Shown here piece after piece: positions 5,280 through 52,981 of a stretch of 64,000 nucleotides of DNA (the stretch's first letter is position 1; each line of letters starts with the position of its first letter). A program made the translations under genes and the position numbers. Below the pieces are notes generated by a model, which saw nothing but the letters and a program-made list of their open reading frames with translations, searched no databases and was not told the origin of the DNA. The DNA is taken from contig NZ_LN831302.1 of assembly GCF_001488575.1 (NCBI RefSeq), positions 1,240,001 through 1,304,000 of the forward strand, read 5' to 3'. This DNA is from Halobacterium hubeiense. GTDB lineage: Archaea; Halobacteriota; Halobacteria; Halobacteriales; Halobacteriaceae.

Positions 5280-5765
5280 CTACTCGTCGGCCAGTTCTTC
5301 GAGCAGCGTCTCCAGTTCGTAGCTCTGGAGCGGGCGGGCGGTGTCTTTCTGCCGGGCGATGACGAACGTGGAGTTCGTGCGGTCGACCTCCGGAATCGCC
5401 TCGAAGTCGGAGATGAGCCGCTCGACGTCGTCGGAGTGCGGGAGCCGCGCCAGCACCATGAAGTCGGTCTCGCCCATCGTGAAGAACGTCTGCGTGACGC
5501 CCTCGACGCCGCTGATCTTCTCGCCGACGTCCTCGTAGCTGCCCTCGTAGGAGGTGAGGACTTCGAGGACGACGGTGACGCCCAGTCCGAGTTCGTCGAG
5601 GTCGAGGTCGTAGAGGTCGTTCTCGACGACGCCCTCCTCGCGGAGGTTGTTCAGCCGGTAGTGAATCGTGGAAACGGGGATGTCGGTGGCCTCGTGGAGT
5701 TCCTCGGGGCTGCTGGTGCCGAGGTCGGAGATGGCTTTCAGGAGCCGTACGTCGCGTTCGTCCAT
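5280..5765 (-). CDS. Lrp/AsnC family transcriptional regulator
   Basis: DNA-binding protein of about 161 residues. The N-terminal winged HTH (MDERDVRLLKAISDLG..SPEELHEATDIPVSTIHYRLNNL) is followed by a RAM-type ligand-binding domain. ATG at 5765 is chosen over one four codons upstream (5777) because family members start with the MDERD helix and a TTATCC box lies about 27-30 bases before it. It is divergent from an EamA exporter at 5935, the arrangement typical of a local regulator controlling an amino-acid or metabolite exporter. That link is inference from position. Confidence 0.9.
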   Translation of the reverse strand: MDERDVRLLKAISDLGTSSPEELHEATDIPVSTIHYRLNNLREEGVVENDLYDLDLDELGLGVTVVLEVLTSYEGSYEDVGEKISGVEGVTQTFFTMGETDFMVLARLPHSDDVERLISDFEAIPEVDRTNSTFVIARQKDTARPLQSYELETLLEELADE

Positions 5766-5889
5766 GCCTGTCGGCATCGACAGGCGCGAGGATAAGGCTG
5801 TGGGAGTCGGCTACAACCACTCCGGGCGTCGGTTGGCACAGACGACAATGAACGACCGTTATATTGGGTTGTGAGCCACCGACCCAGTC

Positions 5890-25793: not shown

Positions 25794-26846
25794 TCAGCAG
25801 AGGAACTCGATGCCCGTGATTTCGAATCGCGCGCCGCCCGTCTCGGCGTCAGCGGCCGTTACGTCCCAGCCGTGGGCGTTCACAATCGTGCGGACGACCG
25901 AGAGGCCGTATCCGTGGCCGTCGTCTCGCGTGGTGAACCCGTGGTCGAACACCTGCTCTTTGTGTTCGTCGGCAATCCCCGGGCCGTCGTCCTCGACGTA
26001 GAAGCCGTTGTCGAGCTGGCCGACGCGCACCGTCACGTCGGTGCCGCCGTGTTCGATGGCGTTCCGGAAGAGGTTCTCGAACAGCTCGCAGAGCCTGTCC
26101 GGGTCGCTGCTCACCGACTGAATCGGCTCGTAGTGGAGGGTCGCACTGGGGGTGGTAGACAGCGTCTGCCACGCCATGTCGACGACGTCACCGATGTCGG
26201 TCGGGTCCGGGTCGGTGACGACGTCTCCCTGTCGCGCCACCCGGAGCAGGTCTTCGACGAGTCGCTCCATCCGGTCGGTCGTCTCCTCGATGGTTTCGAG
26301 GTGTTTCTCGTCGCCGGTCTCCTCGTATCGCTGGAGATACCCGTCGATGATGCTCAGCGGGTTCCTGAGGTCGTGCGCGAGGATGTCGGTGAACTCCTTG
26401 AGGCGGTCGTTCTGCCGCTCTAGCATTCGCTCGTACTCTTTGGTGGTCGTGGTGTCCTGGCTGATGGCAGCGTAGCCGTCGAACGTCTCGTTCCACAGCG
26501 GCGACAGCGTCAGCGTCCCCCAGAAGACCGAGTCGTCCGCGCGCCGATGCCAGTGTTCGACTTCGACGGTGTCAGTGGCCGGCCGCTCGAAGAAGTCCGC
26601 CGGGAGCGAGTTCGAGTCACCGCTCTCCTTGTCGGCGAACAGCGTGCGCACGTGGCGGCCGAGCGCCGTCTCCGTGTCGTATCCGTAGAGCGCTTCGGCG
26701 GGCGCAGACCACGTGGTAATCTCTCCGTCGGCGTCGAGCATGAAAATCGCGTGCGTGGCCGCGCCTTCGATGAGGTGGCGAGCGACCGTGTCGCTCGGTT
26801 CGGACCCATCGGCCCTGGGGGCGTGCGGACCGGGTGAATCCGTCAT
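25794..26846 (-). CDS. PAS-domain sensor histidine kinase
   Basis: A 350-residue soluble kinase. A PAS domain spans about residues 28-135 (AIFMLDADGEITTWSAPAEALYGY), HisKA about 145-210 with phosphoacceptor His in DILAHDLRNPL, and HATPase_c about 240-350 with N box FENLFRNAIEHGG, G1 YVEDDGPGI and G2 HGYGLSVV. No response regulator is adjacent, as usual for haloarchaeal orphan kinases. The N box runs straight into TDVTVRV, unlike the expanded one at 52604. Confidence 0.92.
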   Translation of the reverse strand: MTDSPGPHAPRADGSEPSDTVARHLIEGAATHAIFMLDADGEITTWSAPAEALYGYDTETALGRHVRTLFADKESGDSNSLPADFFERPATDTVEVEHWHRRADDSVFWGTLTLSPLWNETFDGYAAISQDTTTTKEYERMLERQNDRLKEFTDILAHDLRNPLSIIDGYLQRYEETGDEKHLETIEETTDRMERLVEDLLRVARQGDVVTDPDPTDIGDVVDMAWQTLSTTPSATLHYEPIQSVSSDPDRLCELFENLFRNAIEHGGTDVTVRVGQLDNGFYVEDDGPGIADEHKEQVFDHGFTTRDDGHGYGLSVVRTIVNAHGWDVTAADAETGGARFEITGIEFLC

Positions 26847-29873: not shown

Positions 29874-32381
29874 CTACGCGTCGGACTCGACGCCGGTGAC
29901 TTCGAACCGCGCGCCGCCGTCGCCTTCGGTCGCCTCGACCCGCCAGCCGTGCGCCTCCGCGACCTGCTCGACGATGCTCAACCCGAATCCCGTCCCGTCC
30001 GGGTCCTCGGAGTAGCCGGCTTCGAAGACGTCCACGTCGTCACCAGTGGGAATCCCCGCGCCGTCGTCCTCGACGTAGAAGCCGTCCGCGAGGTCGCCGA
30101 CGGTGACAGTGACGTCGCTCCCGCCGTGTTCGGTGGCGTTCGCGAGGAGGTTCTCCACGAGCTGCTGGAGGCGACTGCGGTCCGCGAGGATTCGCCGCGT
30201 GGTCTCGACGCGGAGCGTGGCGTCGGCGGTCGCGACGTGGCGCCACGCCTCCTCGATTAGGTCGCCGAGCTCGACCGGTTCCCAGTCGCGGACCGCCTCG
30301 CCCTTGCGCGCCAGCGTCAGCAGGTCCTCGATGAGGCCGTCCATCCGCGCGAGCGACTCGGCGGCCTGTTCGAGGTTCTCGCTGTCCCGGTCGGCGCGCA
30401 CGAGCTTCACGCGGCCCTTCGCGACGGCCAGCGGGTTGCGGAGGTCGTGGCTGACCACGGACGCGAACTGTTCGAGGCGCTGTTCGCGGTGTTTCCGGTC
30501 CGTGATGTCCCGTGCGATGCTCAGCGCCGCCGCCTCGCCGCGGTACGAGACGACGCTGGAGTTGATTTCGACGGGAATCTCGCGGCCGTCGCTGGTCTCG
30601 TGGACGGTCTCGAACACCTGCGTCTCGTCCTCGGGCAGCCGCTCGATGAGTTCCAACACCTCGCTCTCGCCGTGGCTGGCGTCGATGTCGGCCGGACTCA
30701 TCGACAGCAGTTCGTCCCGCGAGTACCCCGTCTTCTCCACGGCGGCGTCGTTGGCGGCGACGAACTGGCCGTCCGTGTCCATCACCCACGCCATGTCGTT
30801 CATCCCGTTGAACAGCGTCTCGTAGTCCTGTCGCGCCTGCTCTAGCTCTCGCTCGCGGGTCTGCTGTACGGTCACGTCCTGGACGGCGCCGCGAACCGAC
30901 ACCACCTCGCCGTCCTCGACGACGGGCCGGCCCTGACTGCGCACCCACCGGAGTTCACCGTCCGGCCGCCGGAGCCGGACGGTCACGTCGAAGCTCTCGC
31001 CGTCTTCGAGCGCGCGGTGCAGCGCGTCCTCGACGATTTCACGGTCGTCCTCGTGGTAGACGTCGAGGGACTCGTCCAGCGACGGCGCTCGTTCGCAGTC
31101 GACGCCGAGGAGGTCGTAGAGGTGGTCTGTCCAGTACATCTCCATCGTCTCCGTGTCGAGCTCCCAGCCGCCGACGCCCGCGATTTCCTTCGCCTGCCCG
31201 AGGAGATCGTGGGCGCGTTCGAGCTCCGCTTCGCGGGCGTGCTTCCCGGAGATGTCGCGGCCGATGCTGGCGAACCCGAGGTCGTCGCCCTCGTCGTCGA
31301 CGAGCCGCGTGAGGACGAACTCGTAGGGGACGCGCTCGCCGTCGGCCGCGAGGACGTCCACCTGTACCGTCGCCGTGCCCGTCTCCAGCACCGCGTCGAG
31401 GGCGTCGGACACCTCGGCTCGCTGGTCTTCGGGGACGAACGCGGTCGGCTTCGCTCCCGTGACGTCGTCGGCCGCGGAGCCGGTCACGTCGAGGACTTGC
31501 TCGTTCCAGCGATGGAGCCGGAACTCCGTGTCGAAGACGAGGAAGATGTCGTCGAGCGCGTCGAGGGTCTGCTCGACGAACGCTCGCTCCTCGCGGAGTT
31601 CGCGCTCGTGGGCCTTCCGGTCGGTGATGTCGCGGACGAACCCGACGATGCGGTCGACGTTCCCGTCGGCGTCGAGCACCGGCTTGCTGTCCGCGCGCAC
31701 CCAGCGCTGTTGGCCGTCCGGGCGAATCACGCGGTACTCGACATCCCCGACGGTGCCCGCGGAGACCTGATTCATCGCCTGCTGCACGTCGTCCCGGTCC
31801 TCGGGATGTACGTGTTCCATGAACGCGGTCGCGTCGGCTTCCAGTTCGTCCGTGGGCAGCCCCCAGATGTCTTCGAACGCGGAGTTGACGAACAGGAGTT
31901 CGCTCCAGTCCGCGGAGAACATGTAGAGGATGTCGTCGGTCTTCTCCGCGAGCTGGGTGAGCTTCTGCTCGGTCTCGTCGACCCGTCGCCGGGCGCGCGT
32001 CTGCTCGACGGCGTTGACGATGCGGTTCGCGAGCACGGCGTACTGGCTGGTGCCGCCTTCCTTCTGGAGGTAGTCGGTGACGCCGGCGGAGATGGCGTCG
32101 CTGGCGACTTCCTCGGAGCCCTTCCCGGTGAAGAGGATAAAGGGGAGGTCGGGGTACTGTTCGCGGACGGCTTCGAGGAACTCGATGCCGTTCTTCCCCG
32201 GCATGTCGTGGTCGGAGACCACGCAGTCAACCTGATTGTCGCGGAGGTACGACATCGCCTCCTCGGGGTTCGTGGTCGTGTGGACGGTGAAGCGGTCGTC
32301 TCGACGAGTGAGGAATTCGCTGGCCATCTCCGCGAACCCCGGCTCGTCGTCGACGTGGAGAATCTCCATCCCGGCGGCCAT
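29874..32381 (-). CDS. Receiver-PAS4 hybrid histidine kinase
   Basis: An 835-residue soluble sensor kinase. An N-terminal REC domain has phosphoacceptor Asp in VVSDHDMPGKNG and the conserved Lys in DYLQKEGG. It is followed by four PAS/PAC repeats (about 145-255, 265-385, 395-510, 520-635), HisKA with His in VVSHDLRNPLAVAKG, and HATPase_c with N box LLANATEHGGSDVTV, G1 EDDGAGI and G2 GTGFGLSIV. No transmembrane segment. No cognate regulator is adjacent. Closely related in its REC part to the kinase at 50594. Confidence 0.93.
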   Translation of the reverse strand: MAAGMEILHVDDEPGFAEMASEFLTRRDDRFTVHTTTNPEEAMSYLRDNQVDCVVSDHDMPGKNGIEFLEAVREQYPDLPFILFTGKGSEEVASDAISAGVTDYLQKEGGTSQYAVLANRIVNAVEQTRARRRVDETEQKLTQLAEKTDDILYMFSADWSELLFVNSAFEDIWGLPTDELEADATAFMEHVHPEDRDDVQQAMNQVSAGTVGDVEYRVIRPDGQQRWVRADSKPVLDADGNVDRIVGFVRDITDRKAHERELREERAFVEQTLDALDDIFLVFDTEFRLHRWNEQVLDVTGSAADDVTGAKPTAFVPEDQRAEVSDALDAVLETGTATVQVDVLAADGERVPYEFVLTRLVDDEGDDLGFASIGRDISGKHAREAELERAHDLLGQAKEIAGVGGWELDTETMEMYWTDHLYDLLGVDCERAPSLDESLDVYHEDDREIVEDALHRALEDGESFDVTVRLRRPDGELRWVRSQGRPVVEDGEVVSVRGAVQDVTVQQTRERELEQARQDYETLFNGMNDMAWVMDTDGQFVAANDAAVEKTGYSRDELLSMSPADIDASHGESEVLELIERLPEDETQVFETVHETSDGREIPVEINSSVVSYRGEAAALSIARDITDRKHREQRLEQFASVVSHDLRNPLAVAKGRVKLVRADRDSENLEQAAESLARMDGLIEDLLTLARKGEAVRDWEPVELGDLIEEAWRHVATADATLRVETTRRILADRSRLQQLVENLLANATEHGGSDVTVTVGDLADGFYVEDDGAGIPTGDDVDVFEAGYSEDPDGTGFGLSIVEQVAEAHGWRVEATEGDGGARFEVTGVESDA

Positions 32382-50479: not shown

Positions 50480-50593
50480 GCGTACCCTCCACGGCATCAG
50501 GACAAAAGGATTTCTCACCCACGGCAGATACTGACACGGGGCCGGGGGCCGCCACCACAATGGCTATCCTGATTGGCCGACGAACGCATAGTA

Positions 50594-52981
50594 ATGGACG
50601 GTGCGATTCGCGTCCTCCACGTCGACGACGAACCGGGGTTCGCCGAGATGACCGGCGAGTTCCTCGAACGGGCCGACGGCCAGTTCGTCGTCGAAACGGC
50701 CGCGCGGACGGCCGCGGCGCTGGACGCGCTCGCGGCACGCGACTACGACTGCGTGGTCTCCGACTACGACCTGCCCGAGCAGAACGGCATCGAGTTCCTC
50801 GAAGCCGTCCGCGAAGACTACCCCGACCTCCCCTTTATCCTCTTCACCGGGAAGGGCTCCGAGGAGGTCGCCAGCGACGCCATCTCCGCGGGCGTCACCG
50901 ACTACCTCCAGAAGCAGTCGGGCACCGACCACTACGAGCTGCTCGCGAACCGCATCGCCAACGCCGTCGGGCAGCGGGAGACCGAGCGCGACGCCGAGGA
51001 CACCGAACAGCAGCTCGCGGAGCTGGCCGCCCACACCCACGACGTCCTCTGGACGTTCTCCGCGGACTGGGAGGAGCTTCTGTTCGTCAACGACGCCTAC
51101 GAGGACATCTGGGGGCGGTCCGTGGAGTCCCTCGAAGACGACCCGCGGAGCTTCCTCGACGGGGTCCACCCCGAGGACCGCGAGCGCGTCGAGGCGGCGA
51201 TGGACGAGCTGGCCGCGGGCGAACACCTCGACGTCGAGTACCGCGTCAACGAGGCCGAGGACTACGGCCGCTGGGTGTGGGCGCGCGGCGAGCCGGTCGC
51301 GGACGACGACGGCAACGTCGTCCGCGTCACCGGGTTCTCGCGGGACGTCACCGAGCGGAAGGCCCGCGAGCGCGAACTCCACGACAGGGAGCGGCAGTAC
51401 CGCGCTATCTTCGAGGACCCGAACATCCTGGTGGGGCTGCTGGACACCGACGGCACGGTCCGGGACATCAACCAGACCGCCTTCGAGTACGTCAACAGCG
51501 ACGTCGAGAGCGTGACCGGCGAGCCGTTCTGGGAGACGCCGTGGTTCGCGCACTCGGCGGACGCGCGGGCGTCGGTCGCCGAGTGGGTCGAGCGCGCCGC
51601 CGACGGCGAGTACGTCGAGTTCCAGCTCGACCTCGTGGACGGCGACGGGGAGCCGTACGCCGTCGAGGGCGTGTTCCGGCCGGTCACGGACGACGACGGC
51701 GACGTCGTCTCCATCGTCGTCTCCGACCGCGAGGTCACCGACCGGAAGCGCCGCGAGCGGCGCCTCCGGGCGCTGAGCGAGACGACGCGGAGTCTGCTGG
51801 CCGCCGACAGCCGCGAGGCGGTCGCGGAGACGGCCGTGGCGGCCACGCGCGACATCCTCGGGCTGAACGCGAACGCGATTCACCTCTACGACAGCGAGCA
51901 GAACGCGCTCGTGCCCGCGGCGATTTCCGACGCCGCGCGGGACATCATCGACGAGCCGCCGACGTTCCGGCCCGGCAGCAGCATCGCGTGGCGGGTCTTC
52001 GAGGACGGCGAGCCGCTGGCGCTGGACGACGTGCACAGCGACGCCGACGTCTACCGCCCGGACTCGCCCGTGCGGAGCGAAATTTTCCTGCCGCTGGGCG
52101 ACCACGGGATTCTCCTCGTGGGGTCGCCGTCGCCGTCGGCGTTCGACGAACACGACATCGCGCTCGGGGAGGTGTTCGCCGAGAACGTCGTCACCGCGCT
52201 CGAACAGGTCGAGCGGACCGCGGAGCTGCGCGTCCGCGAGCGCGAGCTCTCCGCGCAGAACGAGCGCCTCTCGGAGTTCGCCAGCGTCGTCAGCCACGAC
52301 CTCCGCAATCCCCTGAACGTCGCCGAGGGCCGGCTGGAGTTGGCGCGCGAGACCGGCGACGACCGCCACTTCGAGGAGGTCACGGCGGCCCACGAGCGGA
52401 TGCAGGCGCTCATCGACGACCTGCTTGCGCTCACGCGGGAGGGAAGCGGCGTCGGCGACGTCACGACAATCGGGCTCCGGTCGCTCGTCGAGGACTGCTG
52501 GGCGACCGTGGACACCGGGAACGCGACGCTGGCTGGCGACGCCGCGGCGTCGATTCGGGGCGACGAGAGCCGCGTCCGCCAGCTGTTCGAGAACCTGTTT
52601 CGTAATGCTGTGGAACACGGTTCCATAGACCCCCAGAGCGCTTCGCGTTCTGAGGATGCTGTGGAACACAGCGCCGCGAACCCCCGCTCGGCCGCTCGCG
52701 AGGACGGCGGCGACGTCACCGTCACCGTCGGTCTGCTCGACGACGGCTCGGGGTTCTACGTGGAAGACGACGGCCCCGGCGTCCCCGAGGGCGACCGCGA
52801 GAAGGTCTTCGAGTACGGCTACTCGACGGTGGACGACGGCACGGGGTTCGGCCTGAACATCGTCCAACAGGTCGCCGAGGCGCACGGCTGGACGGTGCGC
52901 GTCACCGACGGCGAGGCCGGCGGCGCGCGATTCGAGGTGACGGGCGTCGAAGTCGTCGAGCCGCAGTCCACGCAAGAATAG
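50594..52981 (+). CDS. Receiver-PAS-PAS-GAF hybrid histidine kinase
   Basis: A 795-residue soluble kinase. REC at 1-120 (Asp in VVSDYDLPEQNG), PAS at about 140-250 and 260-385, a GAF domain at about 395-545 (ILGLNANAIHLYDSEQNALVP), HisKA with His in VVSHDLRNPLNVAEG, and HATPase_c. The N box is NLFRNAVEHG, then a 34-residue insertion of two 17-residue repeats (residues 671-704) separates it from VTVTVGLLDD, G1 EDDGPGV and G2 GTGFGLNIV. ATG at 50594 is chosen over TTG at 50573 because the homology starts there. The partner is unknown. Confidence 0.92.
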   Translation: MDGAIRVLHVDDEPGFAEMTGEFLERADGQFVVETAARTAAALDALAARDYDCVVSDYDLPEQNGIEFLEAVREDYPDLPFILFTGKGSEEVASDAISAGVTDYLQKQSGTDHYELLANRIANAVGQRETERDAEDTEQQLAELAAHTHDVLWTFSADWEELLFVNDAYEDIWGRSVESLEDDPRSFLDGVHPEDRERVEAAMDELAAGEHLDVEYRVNEAEDYGRWVWARGEPVADDDGNVVRVTGFSRDVTERKARERELHDRERQYRAIFEDPNILVGLLDTDGTVRDINQTAFEYVNSDVESVTGEPFWETPWFAHSADARASVAEWVERAADGEYVEFQLDLVDGDGEPYAVEGVFRPVTDDDGDVVSIVVSDREVTDRKRRERRLRALSETTRSLLAADSREAVAETAVAATRDILGLNANAIHLYDSEQNALVPAAISDAARDIIDEPPTFRPGSSIAWRVFEDGEPLALDDVHSDADVYRPDSPVRSEIFLPLGDHGILLVGSPSPSAFDEHDIALGEVFAENVVTALEQVERTAELRVRERELSAQNERLSEFASVVSHDLRNPLNVAEGRLELARETGDDRHFEEVTAAHERMQALIDDLLALTREGSGVGDVTTIGLRSLVEDCWATVDTGNATLAGDAAASIRGDESRVRQLFENLFRNAVEHGSIDPQSASRSEDAVEHSAANPRSAAREDGGDVTVTVGLLDDGSGFYVEDDGPGVPEGDREKVFEYGYSTVDDGTGFGLNIVQQVAEAHGWTVRVTDGEAGGARFEVTGVEVVEPQSTQE
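52605..52706 (+). repeat. Tandem 51-bp repeat inside a kinase ATPase domain
   Basis: ATGCTGTGGAACAC occurs at 52605-52618 and again at 52656-52669, starting two diverged copies of a 51-base unit. In protein the copies are NAVEHGSIDPQSASRSE and DAVEHSAANPRSAARED. The first copy is noticeably richer in A/T than its surroundings. It is in frame, so the protein stays intact. Confidence 0.75.

Follow-up and report, generated by a model that had tools for sequence, protein, structure and literature searches.

A tandem insert behind the N box of a haloarchaeal sensor kinase probably consists of copies of a dispersed twin-hairpin palindromic DNA element

The window, a stretch of 64,000 nucleotides from Halobacterium hubeiense (contig NZ_LN831302.1, positions 1,240,001 to 1,304,000), contains a sensor histidine kinase in which two repeat units follow the N box in frame. 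Its features are given below, with E-values from two models, R1, made from kinase units only, and R3, a general model made from 20 copies, of which three come from kinases, and used at a threshold of E 0.001.

50573-52981, + strand: sensor histidine kinase open reading frame, 802 aa, with domains REC-PAS-PAS-GAF-HisKA-HATPase_c
52589..52618, + strand: N box ENLFRNAVEH, the last four codons of which double as the left H1 arm of unit 1
52604-52606, + strand: codon of the N-box Asn, with the insert units directly 3'
52607-52657, + strand: unit 1, 51-bp class, AVEHGSIDPQSASRSED (R1 E 4.8e-6; R3 E 6.1e-6)
52658-52705, + strand: unit 2, decayed 48-bp class, AVEHSAANPRSAARED (R1 E 6.5e-7; R3 E 1.2e-7)
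52608..52628, + strand: hairpin H1 of unit 1, CTGTGGAAC-ACG-GTTCCATAG, Watson-Crick at 8 of 9 pairs (from sequence, single-strand fold and family covariation)
52634..52652, + strand: hairpin H2 of unit 1, CAGAGCGC-TTC-GCGTTCTG, Watson-Crick at 7 of 8 pairs plus one G.T (from sequence, single-strand fold and family covariation)

After the N-box Asn the reading is AVEHGSIDPQSASRSED / AVEHSAANPRSAARED / GGDVTVTV, with GGCGGC following unit 2, in which several H1 pairs are gone. A preliminary description had proposed an in-frame insert of two 51-bp units at this point. The insert is real, both in the sequence and by a covariance model, and the length is right for unit 1, but unit 2 measures 48 bp. 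The covariance model, built from the 48-bp units of other kinases with the window units left out, has two matches in the 64 kb, namely both units (next best E 0.07); Tandem Repeats Finder at score 40 leaves them uncalled, the DNA copies being too diverged. The window's two other kinases (25794-26846 and 29874-32381, both on the - strand) were said to lack the insert, and their N-box readings, NAIEHGGTDVTV and NATEHGGSDVTV, bear this out. Across the host genome the insert is present in 3 of 28 HATPase_c genes. The 12-mer GCTGTGGAACAC occurs five times in that genome, each time on a histidine kinase N box (reversed control, 0). Insert-bearing kinases share the codons AAT GCT GTG GAA CAC GGT TCC, whereas kinases without the insert mostly use AAC GCC GTC GAR CAC GGC GGC, a difference that pointed to an origin at the DNA level.

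The H, N and G boxes of the host kinase are intact and its HisKA and HATPase_c domains are present. The catalytic boxes are likewise conserved in HATPase_c kinases without the insert, from which the host differs in having 33-35 additional loop residues behind the N box. Searches of solved structures with the host protein returned a kinase match and nothing beyond it. In an AlphaFold2 model of the insert-bearing kinase the kinase fold is normal, and the insert, modelled at low confidence, forms a loop that joins the N-box helix (model 117-135) to the next strand (168-173). Given this low-confidence loop, the normal fold and the conserved catalytic boxes, we think that the insert is tolerated by the kinase rather than used; as modelled, the part of each unit beyond the AVEHGST segment would be a flexible loop ahead of the next strand. 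When the window insert is folded as single-stranded DNA, both hairpins are visible at an overall stability that is ordinary (z -1.2), so that the case stands on covariation and not on stability.

Recurrence of such repeats in haloarchaeal kinases, which had been put forward earlier, is confirmed. Gapped-pattern searches of a set with one genome per species found GTG-form units in 91 of 391 Halobacteria genomes (35 of 86 genera) and GTC-form units in 35 of 194 Halobacteria genomes, with zero matches for either reversed control. There are 195 distinct units: 73 of 45 bp, 97 of 48 bp, 22 of 51 bp and three of 42, 54 or 63 bp. Although the pattern permitted any spacing, all 195 have a length that is a multiple of 3 and contain no in-frame stop. 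Arrays hold from 1 to 8 units per kinase, in keeping with the earlier idea of an expanding element, mix the size classes and always sit in the N-box loop. Exact 17-mer matches in a further genus (g11; L006-L010) were rejected as chance matches lying antisense within another gene.

Constancy of site and frame, the expansion of arrays and the well-conserved AVEHGST peptide would also be expected if slippage had duplicated the N box together with a low-complexity Ser/Arg linker, the product being retained because, as a spacer in the protein, it tunes the kinase. The residue in front of AVEH argues against this: among 39 kinases it is N in 39/39 first copies and D in 69/76 later ones. The catalytic Asn thus stands only before the first AVEH, and the N box proper occurs just once; of the proposed unit, an N-box duplicate with a Ser/Arg linker, the AVEH start holds and the copying of the catalytic Asn does not. 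Taken with the covariation at synonymous sites and the copies between genes and in unrelated genes described below, this makes a slippage-born spacer very improbable. As a separate observation, consecutive AVEH copies favour opposite synonymous codons, with Val3 and Glu3 anti-correlated (V 0.25-0.34), a pattern that avoidance or loss of exact direct repeats might leave.

There are two hairpins in each unit. H1 covers AVEHGST, and its variable pairs fall on third codon positions: Ala3-Thr3, Val3-Ser3 and Glu3-Gly3. All four H1 forms (GTGGAAC/GTTCCAC, GTGGAGC/GCTCCAC, GTCGAAC/GTTCGAC and GTCGAGC/GCTCGAC) therefore spell one peptide. Over the 195 units, with kinship ignored, Cramer's V is 0.90 for Val3-Ser3 and 0.87 for Glu3-Gly3 (p ~1e-33), compared with 0.12 and 0.14 for mispaired site combinations; with one unit per genome the values are 0.79 and 0.86. 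Glu3 and Gly3 show no such coupling in insert-free kinases (V 0.11, Fisher p 0.49). H2 sits in the linker. Its stem length depends on class (6, 7 or at most 10 bp), and its Watson-Crick pairs lie well above what independence would give, in one case 83 of 97 where 32 are expected (kinship again ignored). In alignments A1 and A2, 94-96% of cells are paired, as against 80-83% on shuffling and 27-44% after displacement of the partners by 1-3 columns. Because the linker amino acids vary along with the stem, it is the nucleic acid and not the peptide that is conserved; what had been taken for a simple Ser/Arg linker is a hairpin with covarying arms. In both hairpins, synonymous and compensatory changes preserve the palindrome at the nucleic-acid level.

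Twin hairpins that are stable and show compensatory changes, present in the messages of many kinases, might also mark an RNA regulon, in which the hairpins function in the mRNA through protein binding, processing or translation control. Selection on mRNA would predict common G.U and rare A.C mismatches, and the counts are the opposite, which weakens the RNA reading. On the coding strand of H2 in kinase units G.T is not favoured over A.C (35 vs 49), and units with exactly one H2 mismatch have 6 G.T against 25 A.C. The general, mostly non-coding family described below behaves alike, with 2 G.T and 5 A.C among 234 pairs, and copies in genes also occur antisense. We regard a regulon as improbable. 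The general family is Watson-Crick at 96.6% of pairs vs 47% on shuffling, with about 20 different arm pairs. This scarcity of intermediates agrees with one arm serving as template for the other, or with a DNA palindrome under strict selection. It may be remarked that the excess of A.C in H2 on the coding strand corresponds to G.T on the opposite strand.

The element is not confined to kinases. Model R1 also detects intergenic copies as well as in-frame copies, of either orientation, within unrelated genes:

L104, L107, L108, L111, L122, L133 and L143, and L115 in the host genome: intergenic copies (R1)
L117 and L118, sense: in-gene copies in rhodanese-MBL hydrolases
L121, sense: in-gene copy in a MenB homolog
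L110, sense: in-gene copy in a DUF6735 protein
L136, sense: in-gene copy in a DNA methylase
L126, antisense but in frame: TPP enzyme
L135, antisense but in frame: acyl-CoA ligase
L105, antisense but in frame: protein with a glutamine-amidotransferase-like motif
L134, antisense but in frame: Dna2-like helicase

The two hydrolases, 43% identical, form reciprocal empty sites, each with a 16-residue insert absent from the other, and the MenB homolog and the ligase have extra loops at the element relative to solved homologs. Genes thus contain in-frame copies of both orientations, and the unit, rather than being a mere N-box copy as first described, belongs to a family of DNA palindromes. The non-kinase copies share the frame RCCG-stem-loop-stem-CGAGC-CCT-stem-TCGC...GCTC-stem-AGGAC; many start RCCGTC, with other starts elsewhere, and in-gene copies are mostly preceded by GAC. 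Two further points concern individual hosts. The acyl-CoA ligase (L135:619-2307) has an apparent second insert, DSAERSSVDRSDADGPPQDED, that looks unrelated to the element-encoded one, and the DUF6735 protein (L110:1650-2339) contains the consecutive element-like stretches SEPSLTDGREGA, SNPRSTSSHEDA and GEPSLADAREDA.

Kinase units might nevertheless have been born independently within kinases and have come to resemble the others through a palindrome-perfecting process in GC-rich haloarchaeal DNA. Their H1 does have its own loop and codons, and the 45-bp linker frame AGNCGGAC-NNN-GTCCGNC contrasts with the intergenic form CCTNNNTCGC. Against such convergence, 48-bp kinase units and non-kinase copies have in common the frame CGAGC CCT-NNN-TCGC...GCTC-NNN-AGGAC and the RAC boundary, and R1, for all that it was made from kinases only, scores non-kinase copies at E 1e-6 to 1e-8. 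The kinase units are linked to the general family by some 21 fixed bases of frame that both have, and by model scores, for which the E-values are rough and R3 includes three kinase units. We judge convergence unlikely.

R3 matches 163 of 194 Halobacteria genomes (56 of 65 genera). Several genomes have at least about 31 scored R3 candidates, with equal scores at different places, and four copies from one genome whose sequences were read are identical. Among strict-pattern copies, 62 of 70 that could be classified are non-coding on both sides. The species collection holds at least 80 pattern loci, and among the matches listed all are from Halobacteria; in a phylum sample with one mismatch allowed, the strict pattern was found in 17 of 43 Halobacteria and was absent from all 204 genomes outside the class. 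The host genome lacks the strict general pattern at 0-1 mismatches and has one clear intergenic R3 copy, at C1:2157117. A search of viral contigs for the element gave none, and an Rfam search returned tRNA only. No description of the family was found in the literature searched; most subscription journals lie outside that set, so no claim of priority can be made. A survey of archaeal two-component systems (PMC5847659) leaves repeats or insertions unmentioned.

Units are far more alike than the kinases carrying them. The unit at L053, in the host genome, is 98% identical to that at L155, in the kinase of another species, with flanks at only 70%, close to the background identity among these kinases (mean 69%); the units at L064 and L073 are 100% identical, with flanks at 71%. 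The window kinase's orthologs in the genus differ in unit number and class: at 69% and 62% identity to it, they have one 51-bp and one 48-bp unit, whose sequences are different. These identities and differences indicate a turnover of units that is faster than, and independent of, that of the genes. An insert unique to this gene and fixed, which had been named as the contrary outcome, is not what is seen; units recur and vary. Overall, the interpretation in the preliminary description is partly supported.

For movement, one comparison lies in the PATEs and SMRs of Haloquadratum walsbyi, transposase-free palindromic short repeats, some near 52 bp, of which the PATEs are tied to IS605-type ends (PMC3119063). 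The present element is similarly haloarchaeal, short, palindrome-bearing and without transposase; in-frame coding insertion, which it has, was not found in the parts of the PATE description consulted. It might accordingly be a terminal-only remnant of IS605-type transposons moved by TnpA in trans. The same source describes an absence of target duplication and 52-bp forms that may be mobile, and coding copies of the present element tend to follow GAC or AAC, which resembles a targeting oligonucleotide. Yet no copy lies at any of 16 Y1-transposase loci in four genomes, and five copy-rich genomes (G161, G146, G164, G072 and G135) are devoid of Y1 transposase. A PATE-type remnant is, on these counts, quite unlikely, and the REPtron arrangement, with copies flanking a Y1/RAYT transposase gene, was seen at 0 of 16 loci.

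The best explanation, which we consider likely, is that the insert represents two tandem copies of a dispersed, Halobacteria-specific palindromic element of 45-57 bp with twin hairpins, which has colonised the N-box loop. Since H1 of one sub-family spells AVEHGST, a copy can overlay the N box without disrupting the catalytic motif. A dispersed repeat would have entered a kinase and then spread across kinase paralogs and species. Copy number may since have changed through recombination, as the N-box sequence at the borders of each unit matches that of empty kinases, so that recombination with any of these could add or remove units. Arm complementarity would be maintained by a process at the DNA level and not for folding of the kinase mRNA, either selection on a hairpin needed in movement or the copying of one arm from the other. 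It is possible, although we hold it doubtful, that the family is still active throughout the class as a bare twin hairpin of 45-57 bp without Y1 transposase, with arm-to-arm copying and with codon mimicry of the kinase motif permitting harmless landing and multiplication among sensor kinases.

By analogy, the element looks like an archaeal counterpart of the Rickettsia palindromic elements. These and the intragenic REPs are short dispersed palindromes, many in frame in unrelated genes and some in tandem pairs (PMC3733652, PMC10969869). Such in-frame-inserting elements are known in Rickettsia and some other bacteria, and their mechanism of movement is unsettled. By description, the present element is likewise palindromic, dispersed between and within genes, and inserted in frame opposite homologs with empty sites. 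It differs in its 45-57 bp and two hairpins, its restriction to Halobacteria, and its preference for the kinase N box, which its own codons mimic. REP superfamilies have the tetranucleotide GTAG or CGTC at one end (PMC3733652); many copies here start RCCGTC and others do not. The link to Y1 transposase is absent among the 16 loci. PARCELs, coding repeats of 25 amphipathic residues in membrane-type proteins of bacteria and eukaryotes (PMC2996958), are similar in being tandem coding repeats with dyad symmetry, patchy distribution and variable number; the present units differ in encoding 15-17 hydrophilic residues inside an enzyme and in occurring also in non-coding DNA. The haloarchaeal family offers very many natural copies, empty sites that are reciprocal, a catalytic motif with synonymous covariation, and hosts that are tractable, such as Haloferax, and would make the mechanism testable. 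The length variation of haloarchaeal kinases would be at least partly authored by a DNA element, and adaptation at the protein level should thus not be the default interpretation of such repeats.

Some surroundings of the non-kinase copies are of interest in themselves. Copies at L193 (near 2011), L189 (near 2051) and L125 (near 2067) abut tRNA-like T-arm/anticodon sequence (GGTTCGAATCC and others) in which ARAGORN calls no tRNA; these sites may represent insertion in tRNA genes, fragments or introns. Intergenic copies often lie inside longer genome-specific repeats (L106:2091-2139 and 5735-5782, L179-L182, L144), so that the twin hairpin is possibly the core of larger elements; the longer repeats contain more hairpins and A/T tracts (AAAAAGCTACGCC...GCTAAAAAC).
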